A DNA stretch of 64,000 nt from a virus. Location: the IMG/VR virus record IMGVR_UViG_3300020442_002364, positions 19,428 to 83,427 of that record; one strand, written 5' to 3'. The notes beneath the pieces were generated by a model that was not told the origin of the DNA, searched no databases, and saw nothing but the letters and a program-made list of their open reading frames with translations. Within the stretch, counting starts at the first letter, position 1. Each line of letters begins with the position of its first letter. The translations under genes were made by a program, and so were the position numbers. This document shows positions 19,181 through 64,000 of this stretch, one piece after another.

Positions 19181-20692
19181 TTAGAATTCTATTACTACTT
19201 TGAGCTCTTCATTTTGGTCTGCCGATCTGGTGATCGGATTCCTATTATCTATGTAGAGGACTTCTCCAGAGTTAATTTCAATTTCTTGGTTAGCATAACC
19301 ACCAATAAAGGAGAGACCTAATTCATAAACAGAAACACCAATGGTGATCTGTGATACTGGAATTGTACTTGTACCGAAAGTGGAGTCTGGGGTTGCAGTG
19401 ACGTTAGAATCCGATGTAATTTCATTAGCACCAGAAAACTCAACTACATTACCCTGATAGACGCCATCAGCAGAGTCTTGTACATACTTAAGTGTTTTTG
19501 TTGTTGAATTGTAAGAAACAACAAATCCCTTTGCATTCGTAGTTGTCTGTGTGATGATATCGCCAGGTGCAAAGTTTCCGCTAGGTGTTCCCGCTCCAGA
19601 TTGAGGGAACTTGATTGCTCTAGCAGAGGATCTAGTATTTTGATTTGCTACGGTTGTAGTATTGAAATCAAATGGATTCAGTACAAGACCAATTCTTCTA
19701 TATGTAAGGTCGCTTGGAAAATCAACAAAAGCGTTAGTTGTCTCTAACTTAGTAGAGAACATCAAACGATAAGATCCAAGTTCTCTTGCAGCGTCAGATC
19801 CATGACCTCCATTTGGAGGGATAACAACATCCAATGACGCCAATGTTCCACTACCTATGTTTGGAATCAGAGAAACATCTACAGTTCCAAATGTATAACC
19901 AGAACCAGCAGTGGTCATGATAACAGATGTAACAGACCCAGATACCACTGTAACTGTACAGAATGCTTGGGTTCCACCATTGATTTCCCAATCACCACGA
20001 ACAGGAACGTTTGTATATGTTCCGTTATTGTATCCAGTTCCAGCGTTTTCTACAACGATGGTATCAACAGAACCTTGACTGGCAGCGGATTTTACAAGTG
20101 TGTTTGTAAGAACTGGAATGAATTCAGAAGTAACAAATTTCAGAATGTTGTCAGCATCAATAGTATACATGTACTTCCATCTGTATGAGTACACGCCAGC
20201 ACTGTCACCAGTTTCAATAACCGTAGTGGATGTTCCTGTAGGTTCTACCAATGATGGACGACCCTTAGGGAAGTCTGGACTTTGACCGTTATACAGACAT
20301 TTGTATACATTAAACTCACTATTCATTACATAATAGTTTGAGTCAAATAATCTTGAAGATCCGTTAGAAGTTGTTTTTGATGGTGAATAATCTGGTTTGT
20401 ACATTGAATATACTTTTCCAGTTCCACCAGTAGTATTCACAGGATCAATCCAATCAATCCTAGGAACAACTAGAGCGGTATCTGCAATATCAATTCTTTT
20501 GAATGCCACAGAGTCTCTATATGAGTCTCGATGATACTCAAAACTGTCAATAGGCTCGTTAGCAGGAGGAGAATCTGGTGTTCCCCATGTTTTTGCGCGA
20601 CCAATGAACATGTACACTCTATTCGTACTGAGAAGAGTGTCCCTGAAACTTTCAGCGGCGTAAATTCTAAATTTATCAGTGACTAATGCCAT
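19181..20692 (-). CDS. 8: Baseplate wedge subunit gp8, enlarged (503 aa)
   Basis: This is the gp8 orthologue, part of the hexagonal baseplate wedge with gp6, gp7, gp10, gp11, gp25 and gp53. Recognisable T4-like blocks are near residues 5-75 (DKFRIYAAESFRDTLL; RVYMFIGRAKTWG; LVVPRIDWID), 145-190 (YSYRWKYMYTID; FVTSEFIPV) and the C-terminus (LYIDNRNPITRSADQNEELK, ending VVIEF), which parallels the end of T4 gp8. T4 gp8 is 334 aa. The extra length here is largely an insertion at about residues 205-290 made of GTGY/GSGY beta repeats, plus a further segment at about 350-430. It follows gp7 as in T4 and has its own TATAAATA late promoter. Confidence 0.9.
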   Translation of the reverse strand: MALVTDKFRIYAAESFRDTLLSTNRVYMFIGRAKTWGTPDSPPANEPIDSFEYHRDSYRDSVAFKRIDIADTALVVPRIDWIDPVNTTGGTGKVYSMYKPDYSPSKTTSNGSSRLFDSNYYVMNSEFNVYKCLYNGQSPDFPKGRPSLVEPTGTSTTVIETGDSAGVYSYRWKYMYTIDADNILKFVTSEFIPVLTNTLVKSAASQGSVDTIVVENAGTGYNNGTYTNVPVRGDWEINGGTQAFCTVTVVSGSVTSVIMTTAGSGYTFGTVDVSLIPNIGSGTLASLDVVIPPNGGHGSDAARELGSYRLMFSTKLETTNAFVDFPSDLTYRRIGLVLNPFDFNTTTVANQNTRSSARAIKFPQSGAGTPSGNFAPGDIITQTTTNAKGFVVSYNSTTKTLKYVQDSADGVYQGNVVEFSGANEITSDSNVTATPDSTFGTSTIPVSQITIGVSVYELGLSFIGGYANQEIEINSGEVLYIDNRNPITRSADQNEELKVVIEF

Positions 20693-31966: not shown

Positions 31967-33817
31967 TTAATTATAACTGGACTCTAAAGTAACTCCAGTT
32001 CCAGAAATATTGGAACCGCTGCTGATAACGTCTTCAACAACGTTAACCACAGTATTATCTATGCCAATTGTCAGATAGGTTTCTCTGAGAGAAATCAGGT
32101 CATTTGACTTTGGAACAGCATTGATACGGATTTGGTTTATTTGATATGGAGTGTCTCTAATAATTACATCATTAATTACTACTTCACCTAACATGTAGTC
32201 AACAGAACCCCATAAACCATCGATGAACTCTTTTTCTCCAGTGTCTTTAACATAGAAGAGTTGAAGAGATCCTTTACCATCATCTTGTAGATAATATGTA
32301 TTGACCTGATCACCAGCAATGTTGAATCCTGTTGTGGTTACTGACGGTCTGTCAGTAGAAGAGAAGATAGAGTTTCCATAACATACCTTATAGTTCACTC
32401 TTGCGTTCAATGTAACAGGAACATTCTTTCTCATCAGAATCTTAGTGATGTTTGATGTGAATGAAGGATCGGAATCATCAATGATCTTTTGTAGTTTGGA
32501 ATACTTGAATTTTCCACCAAACTTATTAAATTCAGAACCAGAGTTTAAAATATTAAACGCAGCAATAACAATGTTCTTTAGTTCCGATTGAGTTCTACGA
32601 GTTAAGTTAGGATTGAAGTATACGAAACTTGTAATGTCGATGTAGAGAACAGATGGGTCAATAATTTTTGGTTCTACTGCAGCAACAGAGTATTCTCTAA
32701 GTTTTTTGAGAATATTATTTTTCTCCGCAAGAGAAAGTTTATCTGCATTCTTAGGTTTGATCGCTAAGAATACTTTTCCATACTCAGGGGGATCTGCTTC
32801 TTCACCACCGTAAGCGGAGATAGATTGAATGTTTGGATAGATCTGTGGCAGTAAGACTTCATAGTCTCTAGTTGAGACTGCTCTACCAAAGGAGGAATAG
32901 AATTTAGGAGCAGAGAACTTAATTGACTCCGTAGATTCTTGAACCGCACCTCCATCTGGATTTTGTACCAGAGTTGTGGTAATTCCAGTTGTGATTGTAT
33001 TGCTGTTGTTATCTCTAACTGTACCAATAAAATCAAATGAAGTTAATCCGTTTGCACCTGGACCACTACTGGTAGTGTATGTTACACTAATAACATCTCC
33101 ATCTAGTAGTGCTTTACCTAAAACGTTATCACCAAACAATACTTCTGGTCTTCCATACTCAGACTCTTCTAAGAAGTAAACTTTAGTACCACTATCAATC
33201 TTAGTAATATCTGTCGCCTTGAGGTAAGACTCTGTAACTGTTCCGCTAGTTACCTCAACTTTAAGAGTTGTAGTATCAACAGTCTCATTAGTGAGAATGA
33301 ATCTTTGTCTTTCACTAGTGTCTCTAACAAAAGTATCAGTTAGGAATACACCTTCATACAAGTTGAGATTGCTAAACGTTGCAACTCCAGTTAAACTGTC
33401 TACAGATATACTTTGATCTGAGTCTGTAGAGAATACAAAGTTATCGTTATCTGGTCCAGTAAAGTTTAGTACAATACCTCTTGCAAGAGTTACTGTTCTA
33501 GGGTATGGAAATGTAGTCTGAACTGCAATGTTGACTGGCATCGATGCTGATCGGGCACTCTTAGGAGTGTATCCAATCATTCTTGCAAGTTTTACAACGT
33601 TCTCTCTAAGAACTGCAGTCTCAAGAAAGTTTTCATTTACAATCAAGTTGGCGTTCATCGCCGTATAATACGTATTATACGCAAGAACATCCAAAAGAAC
33701 AGTCAAAGACGATCCTTCAAAGTCATAATCCGAAAACTCAGATTGACCTTTTAGGTAATTTTTGATCTGTAACTTAATCTCGTTATATTCTAACGAGTTT
33801 ACCTGATTAAATGCCAT
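31967..33817 (-). CDS. 6: Baseplate wedge subunit gp6 (616 aa)
   Basis: The N-terminus (YNEIKLQIKNYLKGQSEFSD; LTVLLDVLAYNTYYTAMNAN; FLETAVLRENVVKLARMIGY) is diagnostic of the T4 gp6 / baseplate J-like family. These proteins dimerise into the ring that holds the wedges together around the hub. The C-terminal half contains PKNADKLSLAEKNNILKKLR and DISSFVYFNPN-like strands of the same family. The length is close to T4 gp6 (660 aa). The gene starts at the last base of gp25 (1-nt overlap) and ends 8 nt before the gp7 homologue starts, so gp25-gp6-gp7 form one late operon. Confidence 0.95.
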   Translation of the reverse strand: MAFNQVNSLEYNEIKLQIKNYLKGQSEFSDYDFEGSSLTVLLDVLAYNTYYTAMNANLIVNENFLETAVLRENVVKLARMIGYTPKSARSASMPVNIAVQTTFPYPRTVTLARGIVLNFTGPDNDNFVFSTDSDQSISVDSLTGVATFSNLNLYEGVFLTDTFVRDTSERQRFILTNETVDTTTLKVEVTSGTVTESYLKATDITKIDSGTKVYFLEESEYGRPEVLFGDNVLGKALLDGDVISVTYTTSSGPGANGLTSFDFIGTVRDNNSNTITTGITTTLVQNPDGGAVQESTESIKFSAPKFYSSFGRAVSTRDYEVLLPQIYPNIQSISAYGGEEADPPEYGKVFLAIKPKNADKLSLAEKNNILKKLREYSVAAVEPKIIDPSVLYIDITSFVYFNPNLTRRTQSELKNIVIAAFNILNSGSEFNKFGGKFKYSKLQKIIDDSDPSFTSNITKILMRKNVPVTLNARVNYKVCYGNSIFSSTDRPSVTTTGFNIAGDQVNTYYLQDDGKGSLQLFYVKDTGEKEFIDGLWGSVDYMLGEVVINDVIIRDTPYQINQIRINAVPKSNDLISLRETYLTIGIDNTVVNVVEDVISSGSNISGTGVTLESSYN

Positions 33818-34206
33818 TATGGTTTAAATACTAAATCTAGATTGTCAATCTTAGGTTGAGAACCTAATATGATATAACTAATTTTTGCTTGCATGTCATT
33901 GCCAGTTTCATCGAAGATAACTGCAACATCATAACAAGTCACTCTAGGTTCGTAAGAGTTGATGGAATCTTGGATGTTACTCTCTAGTTCAGAGGCGAGT
34001 GTATCCGTATAATTCTCAAAAAGTTGTCTAATTATGTTTCCACCAAACTGAGGTAAAAAAGGCTTCTCGAAAAAATTGTACCTAACGATGTTTTTTACTG
34101 ACTCTCTAATCGCTTTCTCATTTTTTAGAGTCAATACATCCTTAGTTACAGGGTTTTTTTCAAATGTTAAACTAAAATCCTTGAAAGATTTTGAAACAAA
34201 CGCCAT
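33817..34206 (-). CDS. 25: Baseplate wedge subunit gp25 (129 aa)
   Basis: gp25 is a conserved sheath-platform protein of contractile injection systems. Its EPR motif is present at NSYEPRVTCYDV. The N-terminal FKDFSLTFEKNPVTKDVL and AIRESVKNIVRYNFFEKPF segments match the family, and the length is close to T4 gp25 (132 aa). It starts the gp25-gp6-gp7 run, with a GATAAATA late promoter 21 nt before the ATG. gp6 is coupled to its stop codon by a 1-nt overlap. Confidence 0.95.
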   Translation of the reverse strand: MAFVSKSFKDFSLTFEKNPVTKDVLTLKNEKAIRESVKNIVRYNFFEKPFLPQFGGNIIRQLFENYTDTLASELESNIQDSINSYEPRVTCYDVAVIFDETGNDMQAKISYIILGSQPKIDNLDLVFKP

Positions 34207-34681: not shown

Positions 34682-34996
34682 TCATCCGCCGATGTAAACC
34701 TTTTTTGCGCCTGCTGATAGACCATTGTTGCCCACTGAGTCACCACAATTGACATTAGAACCCAATCTTCCGCATTTTATATTGTTTACATAGACAGAAT
34801 TGCTGCCATCGGAGATACCTCGTGCTCCTCCTGCGTGTGTTGTCTGTCCACAAGTGTGTGCAGCGTACTGATCACCTACTCTACCGACTTGCATATTGCC
34901 TGCATAGACGTTTGGAGACCCTTGTGTGAGGTTTGTTGGGGGAAAACACCCATGTCCAGTGGATAAACCACCTTTAACTGCTGGAGTTGTTGCCAT
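34682..34996 (-). CDS. PAAR-repeat spike tip protein (104 aa)
   Basis: PAAR proteins cap the central spike of contractile tails with a sharp, metal-stabilised cone (T4 gp5.4 role). The glycine/histidine/cysteine pattern supports this: STGHGCFPPTNLTQGS, VGRVGDQYAAHTCG, THAGGARG, VYVNNIKCGRLG and the ending AKKVYIGG. The length of about 100 residues is typical for a stand-alone PAAR protein. The start codon overlaps the stop of the upstream 214-aa gene by 1 nt. The neighbours are baseplate genes. Confidence 0.9.
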   Translation of the reverse strand: MATTPAVKGGLSTGHGCFPPTNLTQGSPNVYAGNMQVGRVGDQYAAHTCGQTTHAGGARGISDGSNSVYVNNIKCGRLGSNVNCGDSVGNNGLSAGAKKVYIGG

Positions 34997-35674: not shown

Positions 35675-35872
35675 TTACCCTCCAAGAGTATTTAATCGAT
35701 CTTCATGGTCACAAACAATATCTACCAGTTTTTCATATTCATTTGAACCAGGACGCCTCATCATCATCTTAGATTCGTTCACACGTTTCTCTAAGGCATT
35801 CACACGCGCCCATAGAAGCTCTAACTCAGCATCATATCTGAGTCTTGCATTGTTTTCAGACGGAATACTCAT
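35675..35872 (-). CDS. Small coiled-coil protein (65 aa)
   Basis: Helical heptads are visible at LRYDAELELLWARVNALEKR, then an Arg-rich turn (MMMRRPGS) and a second helix (YEKLVDIVCDHEDRLNTLGG). I prefer the ATG at 35872, which begins MSIPSENNAR; a longer start at 35890 is possible. The gene overlaps the end of the 69-aa gene by 17 nt. The role is unknown. The position before the tail-tip operon suggests a small tail or assembly protein. Confidence 0.65.
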   Translation of the reverse strand: MSIPSENNARLRYDAELELLWARVNALEKRVNESKMMMRRPGSNEYEKLVDIVCDHEDRLNTLGG

Positions 35873-36065
35873 ACTTTTCTTTTCCAACAAATTGCTCCTC
35901 TAAGTTGTAGTTCATAATCCAGTTCTCAGTTACCACATAGTAACCACTGATGTTTTCGCCATCACACTGGAAACCATAGGTCCTCACTTTCTCACACACT
36001 CCGTCAATGCAGAACTTCTTGTCACTGTGAAGGTATGAGTGATACCTTTCGTCCAGATTAATCAT
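35856..36065 (-). CDS. Unknown small protein (69 aa)
   Basis: The product (MINLDERYHSYLHSDKKFCI to EKYEYSV) is mixed alpha/beta with three Cys and no recognised domain. A TATAAT box lies 22 nt before the ATG, the same arrangement as many small accessory genes further upstream, so it may begin its own early transcript. It separates the 2OG-oxygenase/PPTase pair from the tail-tip genes. Confidence 0.65.
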   Translation of the reverse strand: MINLDERYHSYLHSDKKFCIDGVCEKVRTYGFQCDGENISGYYVVTENWIMNYNLEEQFVGKEKYEYSV

Positions 36066-36100: not shown

Positions 36101-36799
36101 TCAGCAGAAAGAGTGAAAGTTCAATCTAAAGGTATCAGAATACATACCTTTCTTAAAATATGCTGAATGGAACAATGCTCCCTCATAGATGTGCAGTCTG
36201 TTGAACTTACGTGGAAGGAAGTGATACATTTCATATCGCTCGTCCCCATCAAATCCCTCAAACTCAACTAGTTGTCTATACAGATGCTCATTCTCAGGAA
36301 GAATGTCAGCATACCTCTCTTTCCTGTAGATACTAGGATTTCTGAATACTGCTTCTTCTCCAGTATCCCTTACACGGTAGAATGCAGTACCATCTTTGTC
36401 AGTGATCTCCTCATCATGATTCAGACAATAGTTAAATGCCATATGCATCGTGTCTGAATGAGGATAAAGAGATCTCTTCAAACATTTTGTCTTGCTGTTA
36501 ATTACAGAAACGTTCCAAGAGAACTGTGCATCATAAATGCCATAGTGCTCCTCTAGAACAAGTCTCTGATATCTTGTGATAGAATCAAATGTATATTCTA
36601 ACCACTGCTGCCACCCTGGGTAGAAACTACGTGATCTCTCTAGTGGATGACCAGAGCACCAGTCTCTCATCTCCTCAGGATATCTGAAAACATTGTCAAT
36701 GGTAATTACTCTGCTCTTCCATTGACCAATCTCAACTACATTCACATCCGCCTCTTTGTTAATCTCAAAGAGAGCAGTGTTAGCAAATTTCAAATGCAT
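36101..36799 (-). CDS. 2OG-Fe(II) oxygenase-like protein, DUF6445-type (232 aa)
   Basis: An Fe(II) site is suggested by H114 and D116 (YPHSDTMHMAFNYCLN), distal H211 (YEGALFHSAYF) and R225 (DTFRLNFHS), the order of the double-stranded beta-helix oxygenases. The GTAFYRVRDTG strand and FNRLHIYEGALFHS fit the DUF6445 branch, which I know from marine phages and bacteria and whose substrate is unknown. The start overlaps the end of the phosphopantetheinyl transferase gene by 10 nt, so the two are co-translated and may act in one pathway. Hydroxylation of a carrier-bound substrate is possible but is only inference. Confidence 0.72.
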   Translation of the reverse strand: MHLKFANTALFEINKEADVNVVEIGQWKSRVITIDNVFRYPEEMRDWCSGHPLERSRSFYPGWQQWLEYTFDSITRYQRLVLEEHYGIYDAQFSWNVSVINSKTKCLKRSLYPHSDTMHMAFNYCLNHDEEITDKDGTAFYRVRDTGEEAVFRNPSIYRKERYADILPENEHLYRQLVEFEGFDGDERYEMYHFLPRKFNRLHIYEGALFHSAYFKKGMYSDTFRLNFHSFC

Positions 36800-37251
36800 A
36801 CTGTACCTACGAGTCCCTCGGGTAATCCTGTAATATTAATTATACCATCTTTTACTTCTTTGTCCAAGTTACCTCCGATGGTTAACTTGTCACGTTTTAT
36901 TTTTGCTTCCTTTGCAGTCCACAACTCATAGAACTTTTGTTTGTCAGATGTGATCTCTGAGATACTAAAAAATCTACGAGAAATATTTTCAAAGGGGCGG
37001 TCTCTCATAACCTCGATGTCTATGCCGATGGGCATGGATGCTACCGCAACTGCAACGAAGTCGCCGCTGTCGGATTTGTTCCAATGTACAGTGGCAGGTT
37101 TTTTGCAACTCAATTTACCCTCCAAGAAATCTGCGATGCAAGCTCGGATGATCTTGGAATGACTGATCTGGGGCGACTCGAAAAGGTATACAAGAAATTT
37201 TTCACCCAAAAAAATTTCTGAAATAGGGATCCTAAGTTTTTCAACGAACAT
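36790..37251 (-). CDS. Sfp-type 4'-phosphopantetheinyl transferase (153 aa)
   Basis: This enzyme class moves phosphopantetheine from CoA to the serine of a carrier protein. The hallmark motifs are in order: GIDIE (Mg-binding Asp/Glu, about residues 77-81), FFSISE (about 93-98) and FYELWTAKEAKIK (W-x2-K-E-A-x2-K, about 107-119). The preceding VHWNKSDSGDFVAVAVA matches the FNxSHSGD..A.A strand, except that the usual His is Asp here. At 153 aa it is shorter than typical Sfp proteins (about 220) but longer than AcpS (about 120), so it is a compact form lacking part of the N-terminal half. The phage also encodes a carrier protein at 62230-62763, a plausible substrate. The gene is coupled to a 2OG-oxygenase gene downstream. 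Confidence 0.85.
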   Translation of the reverse strand: MFVEKLRIPISEIFLGEKFLVYLFESPQISHSKIIRACIADFLEGKLSCKKPATVHWNKSDSGDFVAVAVASMPIGIDIEVMRDRPFENISRRFFSISEITSDKQKFYELWTAKEAKIKRDKLTIGGNLDKEVKDGIINITGLPEGLVGTVCI

Positions 37252-37351
37252 GATAGTACGGACGCGAATGCAAGACTTTATAGATTAGCTCTTTAGGTAC
37301 CATATTAACACGGGCTACGCCCCAACGCAACGGGGGCGGGGGCGACTGCCC

Positions 37352-37540
37352 CTAGTCCTCCCAGAAGGTGGGCAGTGCCTCTACTGCCTCGTCGTGGTAG
37401 AGTTCGGCATTCTGCCCAGCGATGGCAAAGGAGGGCGATCCGATCGGATGCTCAGCGCTACCGTTATTCAGACACCACACGGTGCGGCGTGTCTTCAGAT
37501 CGGTGCTCATGCTGTAGACGGTGTAAGGGCGGATGTTCAT
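37352..37540 (-). CDS. Unknown small protein (62 aa)
   Basis: I prefer the ATG at 37540 (MNIRPYTVYSMSTDLKTRRT); a start at 37582 would overlap the upstream gene by 38 nt. The product ends EAVEALPTFWED. No family is recognised. The local G+C content is visibly higher than in the structural genes. After the stop, GC-rich inverted repeats (GGGGCAGTCGCCCC) may terminate transcription. Confidence 0.6.
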   Translation of the reverse strand: MNIRPYTVYSMSTDLKTRRTVWCLNNGSAEHPIGSPSFAIAGQNAELYHDEAVEALPTFWED

Positions 37541-37544
37541 GGAT

Positions 37545-37763
37545 TCAGGCGTAGCGGTTAGCAATGGCGTTGGTGTTTGCATCAGAGCGACACCAGCGGT
37601 AAGGGTTGCCCTTGGGGTTGTTGGGCACTGCCCAGATCATGCACTCTTCACCCCATGCCTTAGCGATGCGGTAGGCGTGGTTGATGTCGGTTGCCCAGTC
37701 GCACCCGTGAGGGTCAAAGTTGGACCATGTGGAGGGTTGGACGGCGAAGGTGTGGGTGAGCAT
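37545..37763 (-). CDS. Unknown small protein (72 aa)
   Basis: The frame runs MLTHTFAVQPSTWSNFDPHG, then DINHAYRIAKAWGEECMIWA and RSDANTNAIANRYA. It is a compact alpha/beta protein rich in Trp. The family is unknown. A TATAAT box lies 22 nt before the ATG. It is one of the G+C-rich small-gene cassette members. Confidence 0.65.
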   Translation of the reverse strand: MLTHTFAVQPSTWSNFDPHGCDWATDINHAYRIAKAWGEECMIWAVPNNPKGNPYRWCRSDANTNAIANRYA

Positions 37764-37785
37764 GTCTCTCTGTGTTGTTGAACTA

Positions 37786-37791
37786 ATTATA
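37786..37791 (-). promoter_or_regulatory. TATAAT -10 box
   Basis: Minus-strand GCTATAATTAGTTC lies 22 nt before the ATG at 37763, right after the stop of the 86-aa gene. Confidence 0.55.
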
Positions 37792-37799
37792 GCGGATGC

Positions 37800-38060
37800 T
37801 CAGCGGCACCAGCGGTCGCCGTAGACAGTTCCCCAACCGTCACGCTGAGCACGGCGGCGGTCGTAGTCTTCCGCTGTGAAGTGATCATCAAAATCACCCT
37901 CATCGGTGACGCCCCGCACCATGTCCCCAAAGGTCACGGTTTCGTATTCAGCGGCACGGCGGCAGGTTGCCCGCTCCTGCCTCTCCTGCTCTAGGACCTG
38001 TAGAGCAATGCGGGAGAGTTCAGGAGAGGTGGCGTAGATGCCGTTGGAATCGAATTTCAT
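37800..38060 (-). CDS. Unknown small charged protein (86 aa)
   Basis: The sequence is rich in Arg, Asp and Glu (LQVLEQERQERATCRRAAEY; EGDFDDHFTAEDYDRRRAQR). I chose the ATG at 38060 (MKFDSNGIYA) because the TATAAT box then lies 21 nt upstream, as for its neighbours. The alternative ATG at 38075 would leave only 6 nt and imply a leaderless message. The function is unknown. Confidence 0.62.
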   Translation of the reverse strand: MKFDSNGIYATSPELSRIALQVLEQERQERATCRRAAEYETVTFGDMVRGVTDEGDFDDHFTAEDYDRRRAQRDGWGTVYGDRWCR

Positions 38061-38081
38061 GGGTTGTTTGTTCATGCTCTT

Positions 38082-38087
38082 ATTATA
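38082..38087 (-). promoter_or_regulatory. TATAAT -10 box
   Basis: Minus-strand CCTATAATAAGAGC overlaps the region just after the stop of the 105-aa gene. It is 21 nt from the preferred start at 38060 and 6 nt from the alternative at 38075. Confidence 0.55.
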
Positions 38088-38089
38088 GG

Positions 38090-38407
38090 TCAGTTGAACA
38101 CGTAACCTGACTCGAAGGGGACAGTTTGGTTATTGTCCATGATGTACCAAGCGAAGTCTTTTTGAAATACGCCGTCGGTCATGCCGTTGCAGAACTCATT
38201 GATCAAAGCGTTCAAACGGGACTTGGTGGTGTTAGACTGCCAACCGCCGTCAAAGATACGCATCCAGTTGTCTGTCACTTCTGCGATCTTGTTGCCGTGG
38301 AGATGGACGGTTGACACGTCGCCGCATGTGGTAACGGTGGTGTTGCCTGATGACCAGTTCTTGCCTGCGTTGATAGCGGCGTTCATTTGGGATTCGATCT
38401 TACGCAT
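38090..38407 (-). CDS. Unknown protein (105 aa)
   Basis: The frame contains NTTVTTCGDVSTVHLHGNKI, RIFDGGWQSNTTKSRLNALI and FCNGMTDGVFQKDFAWYIMD. The pattern of a small beta-meander followed by a helix (TTxxV.LHGN.IA) recurs in many marine phage and cyanobacterial hypothetical proteins I know, none with an assigned function. A TATAAT box lies 30 nt upstream. Confidence 0.7.
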   Translation of the reverse strand: MRKIESQMNAAINAGKNWSSGNTTVTTCGDVSTVHLHGNKIAEVTDNWMRIFDGGWQSNTTKSRLNALINEFCNGMTDGVFQKDFAWYIMDNNQTVPFESGYVFN

Positions 38408-38437
38408 GATGTAGAGGGGTGATTGGTTGATGTCTTA

Positions 38438-38443
38438 ATTATA
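38438..38443 (-). promoter_or_regulatory. TATAAT -10 box
   Basis: Minus-strand GCTATAATTAAGAC lies 30 nt before the ATG at 38407. Confidence 0.5.
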
Positions 38444-38447
38444 GCGG

Positions 38448-38714
38448 TCAGAGGGTGGGGCGGCGACATCCAGTGTGCCAGTTTACCCACTGTCCTAATG
38501 ACCTGTCACCAGACAGCAGAAGCGCTACGATGTCACGCTTGCGGGTCTTGTAGGTATACTCGACAAGGGGACCTTTGAACCAGCGAACTTTAAACGTGCC
38601 AGTGAGCGGGTTAACCTTGAGAGTCCAGACCGATTGAGAGACCGAGGGCGAGCAGGTGTTGATGCTGATCATGTGGTGATGTCGTTGCTGATATTGTACC
38701 ATGAGAGGGGTCAC
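38448..38714 (-). CDS. Small KTSC-like domain protein (88 aa)
   Basis: The segment TFKVRWFKGPLVEYTYKTRK, then RDIVALLLSGDRSLGQWVNW, follows the KTSC pattern: a strand-rich V.F..G..Y.Y half, then a helix ending with S.G.W. KTSC is a small domain of unknown, possibly nucleic-acid-related, function. The start is uncertain: ATGs at 38714, 38702 and 38672 are all possible. A degenerate copy of the recurring CCTGTGCCA hairpin overlaps its 3' end. Confidence 0.6.
   Translation of the reverse strand: MTPLMVQYQQRHHHMISINTCSPSVSQSVWTLKVNPLTGTFKVRWFKGPLVEYTYKTRKRDIVALLLSGDRSLGQWVNWHTGCRRPTL
38474..38495 (+). repeat. Degenerate copy of the GTGCCA hairpin element
   Basis: TGTGCCAGTTTACCCACTGTCC keeps the left arm and loop position of the family but lacks the leading CC. 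It overlaps the 3' end of the KTSC-like gene. Confidence 0.35.
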
Positions 38715-59911: not shown

Positions 59912-59913
59912 GA

Positions 59914-59986
59914 CTCCTCCACCTGGACTCGAACCAGGGACAGGGTGATTAACAGTCACCTGCTCTACCAACTGAGCTATAGAGGA
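59914..59986 (-). tRNA. tRNA-Asn (GTT)
   Basis: The 73-nt gene has acceptor TCCTCTA paired with TGGAGGA, D-loop AGCTCAGTTGGTAGAGC, anticodon loop CTGTTAA (anticodon GTT) and T-arm CCTGGTTCGAGTCCAGG. CCA is not encoded. Confidence 0.96.
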
Positions 59987-59993
59987 ATGGGTG

Positions 59994-60173
59994 TTACCCA
60001 AACTCTTCGTTTCTACGACAATCGAGATGATAGAGAACTTCAGATCTCCACTCCATTAGTTCGTTGTAACACTCTTGGTTGTGAGCACATTCGCGAAGAC
60101 TGTGATCTGGTTTCAGCACACTTTCATAAAATAGTCCCAGAGCATCGCGTCTCTTTTGTTGCTTATCGGTCAT
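59994..60173 (-). CDS. Unknown small Cys-containing protein (59 aa)
   Basis: The frame runs MTDKQQKRRDALGLFYESVL, then KPDHSLRECAHNQECYNELM and EWRSEVLYHLDCRRNEEFG. Its ATG overlaps the TGA of talC (ATGA), so it is co-translated with transaldolase. The RECAHNQECYNELM part resembles DSRECYEEMLAEV in the 98-aa protein nearby. It is not CP12: the CP12 C-terminal signature is absent, although cp12 often neighbours talC in cyanophages. Confidence 0.68.
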   Translation of the reverse strand: MTDKQQKRRDALGLFYESVLKPDHSLRECAHNQECYNELMEWRSEVLYHLDCRRNEEFG

Positions 60174-60823
60174 TTGACTCCTTGGTTTACTGCTGCCCAG
60201 TCTTTATCGAAGATTGCAAGTCCTTCACGAGTAAGGACATGCGAATACATCTTCTCGAATACAGCAGGGGGCATCGTCACGATACTAGCACCATTGTAGT
60301 ATGAGCGAGTAACCTTATATACATCTCTAATAGAAGCAGAAAGGATTTGTGTTGCTACTCCTTGAGATTGATAGACCCCTGCAATTGATCGAACGACTTC
60401 TACTCCCGCGACAGAATTATCATCACAACGACCAACGAAAGGTGATACGTATGTAGCACCCGCCTTGGCAGCAAGAATAGCTTGTGCAGCAGAGAAGATC
60501 AAAGTAACATTGACTTTGATACCCAAGTCTGACAATTTCTTACATGCAAGTAAACCGTCTGGAGTACATGGAACCTTGACAGTACAGACTTCTCCAAATT
60601 TCTGAGAAAGACGGAGACCTTCGTCAAGCATGTCAGTATAACTACCAACAACTTCCATGCTGATATCGGGGACGCCAATATCTTTAATTTCCTGATAGAC
60701 TTCTTCTGGATCGCGTCCACTCTTCATAATAAGAGTTGGGTTGGTAGTGATACCATCAATCAGACCAGTAGCAAAGTGCTTACGGATCAATGCAGTGTCG
60801 GCAGTGTCTAGAAAAATTTTCAT
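60170..60823 (-). CDS. talC: Transaldolase TalC (217 aa)
   Basis: This is the short fructose-6-phosphate-aldolase-type transaldolase common in cyanophages, acting in the pentose phosphate pathway. The start MKIFLDTADTALIRK and GITTNPTLIMKSG are signature segments. The Schiff-base lysine is K83 (CTVKVPCTPDG). E57 (ISMEVV) and F129 (YVSPFVGR) match the transaldolase rather than the aldolase subtype. The length is typical (about 215 aa). Redirecting carbon from the Calvin cycle to NADPH and pentose production for phage DNA is the accepted view of its role. An AATAAATA late-like box lies 17 nt upstream. Confidence 0.96.
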   Translation of the reverse strand: MKIFLDTADTALIRKHFATGLIDGITTNPTLIMKSGRDPEEVYQEIKDIGVPDISMEVVGSYTDMLDEGLRLSQKFGEVCTVKVPCTPDGLLACKKLSDLGIKVNVTLIFSAAQAILAAKAGATYVSPFVGRCDDNSVAGVEVVRSIAGVYQSQGVATQILSASIRDVYKVTRSYYNGASIVTMPPAVFEKMYSHVLTREGLAIFDKDWAAVNQGVK

Positions 60824-60840
60824 TACAGAATTTTTTAAGA

Positions 60841-60848
60841 TATTTATT
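60841..60848 (-). promoter_or_regulatory. Late-promoter-like AATAAATA (talC)
   Basis: Minus-strand CCAATAAATATC has one mismatch to TATAAATA, 17 nt before the talC ATG and 12 nt after tRNA-Thr. Confidence 0.35.
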
Positions 60849-60860
60849 GGGCGAACCCAA

Positions 60861-60934
60861 AGCCACTCAACGGACTTGAACCGTTGACCTACTGTTTACA
60901 AAACAGTTGCTCTATCCAGCTGAGCTAGAGTGGC
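60861..60934 (-). tRNA. tRNA-Thr (TGT)
   Basis: The 74-nt gene has acceptor GCCACTC paired with GAGTGGC, D-arm AGCTCAGCTGGATAGAGC, anticodon loop TTTGTAA in stem ACTGT/ACAGT (anticodon TGT) and T-arm AACGGTTCAAGTCCGTT. CCA is not encoded. Its 5' 23 nt overlap the 3' end of a coding region. Confidence 0.95.
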
Positions 60935-61139
60935 GTTGCTTTTCCTCTTTGCTGAGTTTGAAGTACAGTTTATAGTATCTCTTTTTTATTTCTTCAAGAG
61001 TATCCATGTCTTCTTTGAATCCCATGTACTTGGTGAGTTGATAAGACCCTTCAAGTTCACTGATTAATCTTAGCACATTGACCGAAGATCTGTCAAGACC
61101 ACCAAAGGTAAATTTAGTGTGGGAGTTCTGAGAGTTCAT
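60912..61139 (-). CDS. Unknown helical protein (75 aa), 3' end inside tRNA-Thr
   Basis: The frame runs MNSQNSHTKFTFGGLDRSSV, then LRLISELEGSYQLTKYMGFK and the charged helix LEEIKKRYYKLYFKLSKEEK. The last codons and the TAG stop lie within the first 23 nt of tRNA-Thr. It overlaps the upstream gene by 26 nt. No family is recognised. Confidence 0.66.
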   Translation of the reverse strand: MNSQNSHTKFTFGGLDRSSVNVLRLISELEGSYQLTKYMGFKEDMDTLEEIKKRYYKLYFKLSKEEKQRHSSSAG

Positions 61140-61383
61140 CTAAGTCAAGTTCATCAAGTAGAGGATGGAATCCTTCTTCAATCAAGTAAGAGGATCCATG
61201 CCAGATATCTTCTGCTGAAAATATACGAGACTCTCTTGCTTTTTTAATTACTTTATCTGGTAGTGGAAATTCTGCAATATCATCCCAAGTAAAAGGAATG
61301 CCCTGTACAAAGAACATTTTAACTAGACCCTCCCCTTTTAGATAGCGATATTCCCAATACACCTTCAGGACTGTTTCTTCCAT
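61114..61383 (-). CDS. Unknown protein (89 aa)
   Basis: The frame runs MEETVLKVYWEYRYLKGEGL, then PFTWDDIAEFPLPDKVIKKA and WHGSSYLIEEGFHPLLDELD. I prefer the ATG at 61383; 61401 is possible. The pattern of an N-terminal strand, a central helix and an acidic end is seen in other cyanophage hypothetical proteins without known function. It overlaps the end of the 237-aa gene. Confidence 0.68.
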   Translation of the reverse strand: MEETVLKVYWEYRYLKGEGLVKMFFVQGIPFTWDDIAEFPLPDKVIKKARESRIFSAEDIWHGSSYLIEEGFHPLLDELDLDELSELPH

Positions 61384-62078
61384 AGAAAATCGAACGGACA
61401 TTTACTATCTTCTTTCTTTAGTCTATCTTTGATTAGACTCCATGATGCAAATTTGTCAAATTCCTTCAACCTAGCGTTCTGTGCATACTGATCGAGAATG
61501 TCTTGAGGTGGTGCTTTTTTCTTGAGTGAGAAAGTGCTATCCGACTTCTGAGAGTATAATCTCAACATGAACAGTGGAGTGCCTTTAGGGATCCACAAAT
61601 TAGTATCTAGATCTAAAAGTTTAAATCCAAACCCAAGAGGACGTTGCCATACTGATAATGGATATGTTCCTGGGATAGATTCTAATCCGTATCTGGAGAG
61701 TAAAGGATGAGGTATTTGTTCTACCCAAACGTCCTTATCTCTTGTCCATAAGGCGTGACCATAATTAAATTGTATCTCTGGTAGTTCTCCATCTAACCAA
61801 TTAGGAGCTAGATTGAAAAACTCATCAAATATAGGTTGTGCTAAATTTGTATCTAGATATTTATCGGTACTTTTGTAGAGCATACCGAGATCAAATGGTT
61901 GGTAGAATATCCAAGTATTCTTACCCCACTCTGACCATGCAGGACATTTTGCATGAGAGTAATTACGATCATACTTAGAACCAAACTTAGTTGGTTCTGG
62001 AGTGTAGTCTGGTGGTAGATATTCTTTTTTAAAATCTTCTTGCTCCCCGATTGTAGGGAGATAATACACATTCTTCAT
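61365..62078 (-). CDS. DUF6065-like conserved cyanophage protein (237 aa)
   Basis: The frame includes MKNVYYLPTIGEQEDFKKEY, NTWIFYQPFDLGMLYKSTDK, FGFKLLDLDTNLWIPKGTPL and FMLRLYSQKSD. The WIPKGTPL...R turn and the order of strands recall the DUF6065 family, whose function is unknown. The ATG begins 2 nt after the discriminator base of tRNA-Leu and has no visible Shine-Dalgarno, so it may be translated from a transcript processed at the tRNA 3' end. Confidence 0.72.
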   Translation of the reverse strand: MKNVYYLPTIGEQEDFKKEYLPPDYTPEPTKFGSKYDRNYSHAKCPAWSEWGKNTWIFYQPFDLGMLYKSTDKYLDTNLAQPIFDEFFNLAPNWLDGELPEIQFNYGHALWTRDKDVWVEQIPHPLLSRYGLESIPGTYPLSVWQRPLGFGFKLLDLDTNLWIPKGTPLFMLRLYSQKSDSTFSLKKKAPPQDILDQYAQNARLKEFDKFASWSLIKDRLKKEDSKCPFDFLWKKQS

Positions 62079-62080
62079 AG

Positions 62081-62164
62081 TAGGAGCGGGGGGACTTGAA
62101 CCCCCACGAGATAATTCTCAACAGATTTTAAGTCTGGTGCGTCTACCGATTCCGCCACGCTCCC
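62081..62164 (-). tRNA. tRNA-Leu (TAA)
   Basis: The 84-nt class II tRNA has a long variable arm. Acceptor GGGAGCG pairs with CGCTCCT, the anticodon stem CAGA/TCTG encloses CTTAAAA (anticodon TAA), the variable arm is TTGAGAATTATCTC, and the T-arm is GGGGGTTCAAGTCCCCC. CCA is not encoded. Confidence 0.95.
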
Positions 62165-62229
62165 GACTTCACCCTTCCCAAGTAGGAGGATGAAACTGAC
62201 AATATTCGTTAAAGGTGATTTTCATCTCC

Positions 62230-62763
62230 TTATTCGTCAGACCCGCATTCTTCGCTGCTTTCGGTAGGTTCCACTTCGCTGTGAACAGCATCTCCATCGA
62301 TTCTCTTGTTTCTGGTCTCATCTTCCTCCAATGCTTTTTCGATTTCTGATTCTAGATCAGGTTGAGTTTGTCCAATCTTAGGTGCCCCGATAGGACTCCC
62401 AGGAGCAGGACGCCTAATATACTTCGATTTGTCAATCTTGCGTGGTTTGCCTTTCTCTTTCTTACACTTCTTAATAACATCAATGGCATCACCTACAGTG
62501 ACAATATCCATTGAGTATTCATCTGCAATCTCAATGCTAAAACACTCCTCAAGGAACATAACCAATTCAACAAGATCAAGAGAATCTGCATCCAGATCAT
62601 CTACGAACTTTGTTTCCATGGTAACAGAGTCCCAATCAAAATCTTCTTTGACCAGTGCCTCTTTAAGTGCCAAGCGTGTTACCTGTAGGAGAACATCATT
62701 GTTCACCTTCTTTGCATTCTTAAGAATGTCTTTAATCTCGTGATAAGTTTTGTTGTATGCCAT
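62230..62763 (-). CDS. Acyl carrier protein with acidic C-terminal tail (177 aa)
   Basis: Residues about 20-100 are a complete ACP domain: helix [17 protein letters not shown], then [20 protein letters not shown] with the phosphopantetheine-accepting Ser61 in the DSLD motif, then [20 protein letters not shown] and IDVIKK. Typical ACPs are about 80 aa. Here a 75-residue tail follows, first basic with Pro ([20 protein letters not shown]), then strongly acidic ([29 protein letters not shown]). Phage-encoded phosphopantetheinyl transferase (36790-37251) is a candidate activator. It may divert host fatty-acid or other acyl chemistry, or use the acyl group as a signal. It lies between tRNA-Gly and tRNA-Leu. 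Confidence 0.9.
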
Positions 62764-62780
62764 AGCAATAAATTAGTGAG

Positions 62781-62852
62781 AGCGGGGTATCGGAATCGAA
62801 CCGACGACATCTAACTTGGAAGGATAGCGTTCTACCGCTGAACTAACCCCGC
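62781..62852 (-). tRNA. tRNA-Gly (TCC)
   Basis: The 72-nt gene has acceptor GCGGGGT paired with ACCCCGC, D-arm AGTTCAGCGGTAGAAC, anticodon loop CTTCCAA (anticodon TCC; stem CTATC/GTTAG with one T-T mismatch) and T-arm TCGGTTCGATTCCGA. CCA is not encoded. Confidence 0.94.
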
Positions 62853-63367: not shown

Positions 63368-64000
63368 TCAATTCAAGTAAATGCCATTGTCACAGACAAT
63401 TTCCATCTTGTCTCCAGCAGCTTCCACTTTCATATTCTGAGTTGAATACAAGTGCATATCTGTAGACACAATTCTAGCACCCTCACCAGCGTTGACTTGC
63501 CAAGCGGTAGGATTACCATATGGACTATCTGTTGGTTTCCTGGTCCAAGAACCTCCGTCCTCAATACCACCAGCAATACAGTCAAAATCATCACCAACAA
63601 CAGAGGTTTTCATCTTACCCTCTACGTTAGTAAAGAAATTTGTTCCTACTGTATCATAGCGACAACCTTTTGTACGAATTTGGAGATCTCCCTCGCTAAG
63701 AATAGCAAAGACACCACCCTCCTTCGTCATGCTGATAACACGATTACCTTTGATAATATCACGAATCTCACCACCTTCGGCAAGATCATTATTACCAAAA
63801 GACATCTTCTGGTTGATAGTATTGGCATCCAGTTTCAGAATATTTTCTGCTTTGATAGCAATATTCTCATCTGACTGCAGGAACATAACCTCCCCACACT
63901 TCATTTCCCACGTACCATCAACCTTATCATAACGATTGCCTCTGGTCTCAGTATGCATATCACCTTCTACGGTCATATGTGCATTACCAACAACATGGAT
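63368..64000 (-). CDS. 5: gp5-like baseplate hub/needle protein, C-terminal part (partial)
   Basis: The frame is open to the right edge, so the N-terminus is missing; at least 210 residues are present. The repeats MTVEGDMHTETRGNRYDKVD, GTWEMKCG and VEGKMKTSVVGDDFDCIAGG follow the V-x-G-x5 period of the triple-stranded beta-helix needle of T4 gp5, and the end (AAGDKMEIVCDNGIYLN) is typical of such needles. The lysozyme domain, if any, would lie beyond the edge. The PAAR tip gene is separate (34682). Confidence 0.72.
   Translation of the reverse strand: MHVVGNAHMTVEGDMHTETRGNRYDKVDGTWEMKCGEVMFLQSDENIAIKAENILKLDANTINQKMSFGNNDLAEGGEIRDIIKGNRVISMTKEGGVFAILSEGDLQIRTKGCRYDTVGTNFFTNVEGKMKTSVVGDDFDCIAGGIEDGGSWTRKPTDSPYGNPTAWQVNAGEGARIVSTDMHLYSTQNMKVEAAGDKMEIVCDNGIYLN

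Follow-up and report, generated by a model that had tools for sequence, protein, structure and literature searches.

A compact Sfp-like phosphopantetheinyl transferase in a Eurybiavirus-like cyanophage and its nested co-occurrence with a phage acyl carrier protein

The presence of 'an acyl carrier protein ... and its synthetase' in the cyanophages P-HM1 and P-HM2 was recorded by Sullivan et al. (2010; PMC3037559), and the GenBank products of Prochlorococcus phages agree with this naming. In the literature we searched, published accounts of this pair of acyl carrier protein (ACP) and phosphopantetheinyl transferase (PPTase) give the name only, and the text of the P-HM2 transcriptome paper (PMC5082946) mentions neither gene. 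Among PPTases in general, group II enzymes comprise more than 220 aa and group I enzymes about 120 aa, and in Sfp an Asp-Glu-Glu triad binds Mg (PMC4103896). The DNA analyzed here, referred to as the window, is a 64-kb stretch of a virus record of 83,427 bases, running from base 19428 to base 83427. Its baseplate protein gp6 is 70-72% identical to the gp6 proteins of P-HM1, P-HM2 and MED4-213 and about 41% identical to those of the next phages, and the window was therefore assigned to a Eurybiavirus-like cyanomyovirus, in which the late genes lie here on the minus strand. The PPTase gene and its surroundings comprise the following features:

37263-37283, minus strand: non-coding element CTATAAAGTCTTGCATTCGCG, about 11 nt ahead of the PPTase start, recognized by its conservation; heads the baseplate operon
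36790-37251, minus strand: PPTase, a compact Sfp-like 4'-phosphopantetheinyl transferase of 153 aa (PHROG 23098, cyanophage T4-GC500 family), identified by Pfam, PHROG, PDB profile, AF2 and Foldseek
36101-36799, minus strand: DUF6445 protein of 232 aa (PF20043, E 9.8e-20), 2OG-oxygenase-like according to the annotation of a homologue
35856-36065, minus strand: 69-aa protein (phrog_6312), the usual downstream neighbour of the PPTase in near relatives
34682-34996, minus strand: PAAR-like spike tip protein, encoded in the baseplate operon that the PPTase heads, by synteny with the P-HM2 PAAR gene
33817-34206, minus strand: baseplate wedge gp25, 59% identical to P-HM2 gp25 and used as synteny anchor

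The original prediction had described a 153-aa PPTase with GIDIE, FFSISE and WxxKEAxxK motifs within 36101-37251. The coordinates proved exact, with the PPTase ORF at 36790-37251, and all three motifs were found, in the form of GIDIE (D78, E80), RFFSISE and WTAKEAKIK (W111, K114, E115, K119). The ORF matched Pfam ACPS (PF01648) with 33.3 bits, above the cut-off of 25 (E 5.5e-8; the genome search gave 33.5 bits), and PHROG 23098 at 1.1e-28, and a profile built from 14 phage homologues gave Sfp as its only significant PDB match (8e-8). The fold was in line with these results: for the AlphaFold model (pLDDT 87, pTM 0.82; 49 aligned sequences) the top Foldseek match was Sfp complexed with CoA and carrier protein (4mrt, E 1.5e-6), and the best 34 PDB matches were Sfp-type PPTases throughout, after which the matches jumped to E 0.2. 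TM-scores over the query ranged from about 0.44 to 0.59 against Sfp-type PDB entries, with 0.56 to Sfp, moderate values that would not be surprising in a protein of reduced length. AcpS was absent among the 50 listed PDB fold matches, the PDB profile matched Sfp only, and the phage enzyme does not have the about 120-aa trimeric AcpS fold of group I. The residues D78, E80, E115, K119 and W111 are invariant among the phage homologues, all 67 near-full-length ones contain G[IVL]D[IV]E and WxxKEAxxK, and the Mg-binding triad Asp-Xxx/Glu-Glu together with the W/KEA motif, as defined for the Sfp type (PMC4103896), is present in the phage PPTase. A search of IMG/VR recovered 74 relatives in phages, confirmed on a later check, and dN/dS of the window PPTase was 0.13 in the comparison with its nearest relative and 0.18-0.26 in those with nine further ones. 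Since 74 phage relatives exist, the motifs recur in 67 of 67 homologues and dN/dS lies between 0.13 and 0.26, the ORF is not a product of chance; it is a real PPTase, whose family, predicted fold, catalytic residues and purifying selection were all established computationally, as were the nested co-occurrence with the ACP and the position in a baseplate block described below.

The phage enzymes are set apart from their cellular counterparts by the compact form and the Asp in place of the usual His that had been noticed in the window protein. Members of the phage family measure 123-163 aa, the shortest (123-125 aa) having script-chosen starts so that the true proteins may be longer, whereas the 22 measured relatives from cells span 201-270 aa. 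At 153 aa the window PPTase stays below the more than 220 aa of group II (PMC4103896) and was therefore filed as compact Sfp-like rather than canonical Sfp-type. The His of the SHS strand, a feature of the Sfp type, is missing from the phage PPTases, being replaced by Asp in 65 and by Asn in 2 of 67 proteins, and the change is thus a trait of the family; SH was read at this site in all 22 cellular relatives (by script or by eye, and for the relative L188 through an NISHS match only). To Bacillus subtilis Sfp (1qr0, 4mrt) the modelled window protein gives a fold match with 31% identity over 127 columns, and the two have the Asp-Glu-Glu triad and the W..KE...K pattern in common, but Sfp comprises 225-232 aa, retains the SHS His and has N- and C-terminal segments that are shortened in the phage enzyme. 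The cyanobacterial HetI-type Sfp-like PPTases were matched weakly at the family level (NF042922, 8.7e-5 for the window and 4.7e-7 for P-HM2), and the cyanobacterial relatives have 244-270 aa compared to 153 aa in the window. No close cellular donor was found among the matches listed, the best of which reached 29-45% identity over part of the length. The His-to-Asp change and the loss of terminal segments could make CoA binding by the phage PPTase weaker, and the same shortened ends and substitution might indicate a degenerate enzyme that binds CoA or the ACP without catalysis, as a decoy or inhibitor. We regard such a degenerate protein as very unlikely, given that none of the 67 homologues deviates at the catalytic carboxylates or the Lys and that the gene is under purifying selection.

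Compared to the T4-GC500 'ACP synthetase' of the Eurybiavirus members P-HM1, P-HM2 and MED4-213 (PHROG 23098), the window PPTase belongs to the same length class, with 38-39% identity over 87% of the length. As in these phages, it lies upstream of PAAR-gp25-gp6 and its partner ACP (T4-GC457) follows the gp5 hub; unlike theirs, it is diverged, carries a longer N-terminus that is common to its near relatives, and is followed by a DUF6445 insertion. The window PPTase is thus a diverged member of a pair known since 2010, and the initial view that such an enzyme is not a standard cyanophage gene stands with regard to its rarity among cyanophages, but not with regard to novelty, as the gene was already present in P-HM1, P-HM2 and MED4-213 and named by Sullivan et al. 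(2010). As far as the literature searched shows, what is new is the compactness together with the Asp, the nested distribution in uncultivated phages, and the removal of the link to an oxygenase.

This link had been drawn from the overlap of the PPTase with the DUF6445 gene in the window. The overlap, of 10 nt, is real, and a DUF6445 homologue in phage Sf-FS3 is annotated as a 2OG dioxygenase; the coupling of the two genes, however, did not hold, since DUF6445 adjoins the PPTase in none of the 74 other phage PPTase loci. Moreover, in two loci whose PPTase is 95% identical (L002 and L003) the site is empty, the PPTase stop codon being followed by the intergenic stretch that is found after DUF6445 in the window. 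We reject a conserved PPTase-DUF6445 unit on the basis of these 74 loci and the intact empty site, and DUF6445 looks like a private, recent cassette insertion outside the conserved unit. Two further contigs (L245 and L246) contain C-terminal parts of DUF6445 that are 97-98% identical to the window copy, without PPTase-operon genes downstream; copies so similar point to a recent exchange of this gene among phages.

The non-coding element ahead of the PPTase was an unexpected find. In the form CTATAAAGTCTTGCAT(N)CGCG it occurs once in the 64 kb window, where shuffles expect none, and the element or a close variant is retained upstream of most PPTase genes examined, even at about 40% protein identity. 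The form CTATAAAGTCTTGCATNCGCG(AGCG) was found in at least 119 stretches of viral contigs, many of them uncultivated and cyanophage-like. In the 114 stretches read, the first recognized gene after the element was the PPTase in 35 and one of the 69/71-aa genes in 17, while 57 contained the w48 gene, mostly with gp25 and gp6, after other cargo, and five, mostly short stretches, had no recognized gene. In 4 of the 57 the other cargo was inspected and consisted of two proteins, a small one that by eye is AbrB-like and one of about 250 aa. Wherever the baseplate operon is visible it is headed by the element, with a variable cargo slot after it. An Rfam search with the upstream element gave no match, and the CTATAAAGT element is, as a natural guess, a candidate late promoter. 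Just upstream of the PPTase operon, the stretch 37300-38700 is GC-rich, with several small ORFs and predicted hairpins, and its surroundings are more AT-rich.

The ACP that had been reported for the same phage was located in a second block of the window:

63368-63976, minus strand: C-terminal part of the gp5-like baseplate hub / tail lysozyme, encoded upstream of the ACP (phrog_24638, 7.3e-41)
62230-62763, minus strand: ACP of 177 aa with a FAS-type DSLD serine motif and a long charged C-terminal tail, identified by PDB and NCBIfam matches, the DSL serine and co-occurrence
61365-62078, minus strand: 237-aa protein (phrog_17480) after the ACP, found in about 56-60 of 80 ACP loci

The ACP ORF matched 107 PDB sequences (best E 1.1e-12), the best 60 of which were all ACPs, mostly of fatty-acid synthesis, and its best NCBIfam models were likewise acyl carrier proteins, mostly of fatty-acid synthesis (7.7e-20); the Pfam PP-binding model scored 20.5 bits, just under its cut-off of 20.8. 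An ACP domain with the DSL serine is accordingly predicted at 62230-62763, this serine and most of the recognition helix after it are invariant in 17 phage ACP homologues, and dN/dS was 0.08-0.17 against the window copy. By its PDB and NCBIfam matches the phage ACP resembles a usual carrier of fatty-acid synthases. Four tRNA genes (Asn, Thr, Leu, Gly) at 59912-62852 on the minus strand are interleaved with cargo genes, namely a CpeT-like gene, transaldolase and the ACP. The 237-aa protein was considered as a partner enzyme of the ACP and rejected: its AlphaFold model (pLDDT 82) resembles dUTPases (E 4e-4, TM-score 0.3-0.35), and homologues also occur in Synechococcus phages where the window-type ACP was not found, so that it is probably no acyl enzyme.

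The neighbourhoods of the two genes bear on two further proposals for the function of the pair. The hub/tail lysozyme gene is present in 79 of 80 ACP loci and the PPTase heads PAAR-gp25-gp6, so both genes lie within baseplate blocks, in a synteny common to the window and P-HM2, and acyl-ACP might serve virion assembly as the source of a fatty acid that is attached to a protein of the baseplate or spike. We see only a slim chance of this, as both positions are cargo slots, occupied in other phages by unrelated genes, and a match to the HlyC acyltransferase was absent from the phage records, in a search run without a positive control. It is similarly improbable that holo-ACP carries a substrate for phage 2OG-oxygenases, which would hydroxylate an acyl or aminoacyl group bound to it, although in several lineages at least three different 2OG-oxygenase-like families (ox164, ox188 and ox176) are represented in the roughly 3 kb that follow the ACP and DUF6445 adjoins the PPTase in the window. 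No oxygenase family is constant, 12 ACP loci have the order ACP, 237-aa gene, CpeT without any of the three, and in the window none of them was found between ACP and CpeT; DUF6445 is a private insertion beside the PPTase, cyanomyoviruses possess many 2OG-oxygenases anyway (P-HM2 annotation), and an AMP-ligase search found no loading enzyme in the phage records. The P-HM2 gene PHM2_030 (NC_015284, 19368-19865), annotated as 'DNA endonuclease V', overlaps the ACP and looks homologous to 2OG-Fe(II) oxygenase-like proteins whose genes come after the ACP in about 19 contigs (for example L078, 10467-10958); it is probably misannotated.

The distribution of the two genes was more informative. Among 50,697 phage records, the PPTase family at E<=1e-5 and ACP relatives at E<=1e-3 were found only in P-HM1, P-HM2 and MED4-213, the same three isolates; two human-faecal phage records gave a weak PPTase match of about 1e-4. 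IMG/VR yielded 74 PPTase loci and at least 125 ACP loci, and seven records spanning both the hub/ACP and the gp25/PPTase regions formed the sample for co-occurrence. All seven contained the ACP, five also the PPTase (the window, P-HM1, P-HM2, MED4-213 and the 200-kb contig G007), and none the PPTase without the ACP. In the remaining two, G035 (189 kb) and G039 (77.6 kb), ACP, hub and gp25 were present with no PF01648 match, and in G039 the PPTase slot is empty, the upstream element being followed by the 69-aa gene. Contigs with other cargo in this slot lack the hub region and are uninformative on the ACP. The PPTase is thus nested within ACP-bearing phages, and it is dispensable, because at least two ACP-bearing phages show no PF01648 match at all. 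As the informative genomes are few and related, the co-occurrence is confounded with descent; the two genes are about 25 kb apart and do not form one unit. The nested pattern also bears on the possibility that the PPTase mainly serves the host ACP, sustaining or raising holo-ACP during host gene shut-off, with the phage ACP being incidental. The host PPTase gene may be silent late in infection, and the phage ACP bears the general FAS-type recognition motif, so that an enzyme reading it may read the host ACP as well. We nevertheless consider a main role on the host ACP unlikely, since in the informative records the PPTase occurs only where a phage ACP is present, and since holo-ACP is expected to be stable, in which case a short infection should need no new enzyme.

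Instead, we infer that the compact Sfp-like PPTase probably phosphopantetheinylates the phage's own FAS-type ACP, which would then work with host enzymes. In the reaction, substrate, timing and use that we propose, the PPTase would move 4'-phosphopantetheine from CoA, with Mg2+, onto the DSL serine of the phage ACP, and during infection, probably in its late phase, host enzymes of type II fatty-acid synthesis or of acyl transfer would use the resulting holo-ACP. A possibly narrow host PPTase probably cannot serve the divergent phage ACP well; some phages would therefore bring their own PPTase, while other ACP-bearing phages would depend on that of the host. In Synechocystis, the single PPTase activated only its cognate FAS carrier (PMC5605751), a narrowness which suggests why a divergent phage ACP may travel with its own activator. 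A carrier-protein-based chemistry had also been suggested, which is not supported as a self-contained pathway: the ACP looks like the ordinary FAS type, and no AMP-binding, ketosynthase or 4HBT (hotdog) thioesterase domains were found in five ACP-bearing phage records, in searches whose positive controls scored. Host partners would thus be needed, and it is unlikely that the phage has a complete polyketide, peptide or fatty-acid pathway of its own. The P-HM2 'esterase' PHM2_204 was considered as a thioesterase and discarded, a Pfam match being absent. More tentatively, the shortened Sfp-like PPTase with its Asp may have co-evolved into a dedicated, narrow-specificity activator of the phage ACP, so that infection would draw on an acyl carrier pool owned by the phage and fed by the fatty-acid synthesis of the host; we hold this specialization to be possible rather than probable.

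If the PPTase is such a dedicated activator, few Sfp-like PPTases would be as small, and the compact enzyme offers a natural test of the minimum that a PPTase needs. The nested pattern, in which phages have the ACP alone or ACP and PPTase together but never the PPTase alone, makes the failure of host PPTases on the phage ACP a testable proposition. The pair suggests that, among the phages of Prochlorococcus-type hosts, some employ an acyl carrier of their own in infection, which would tie infection to the lipid synthesis of the host.
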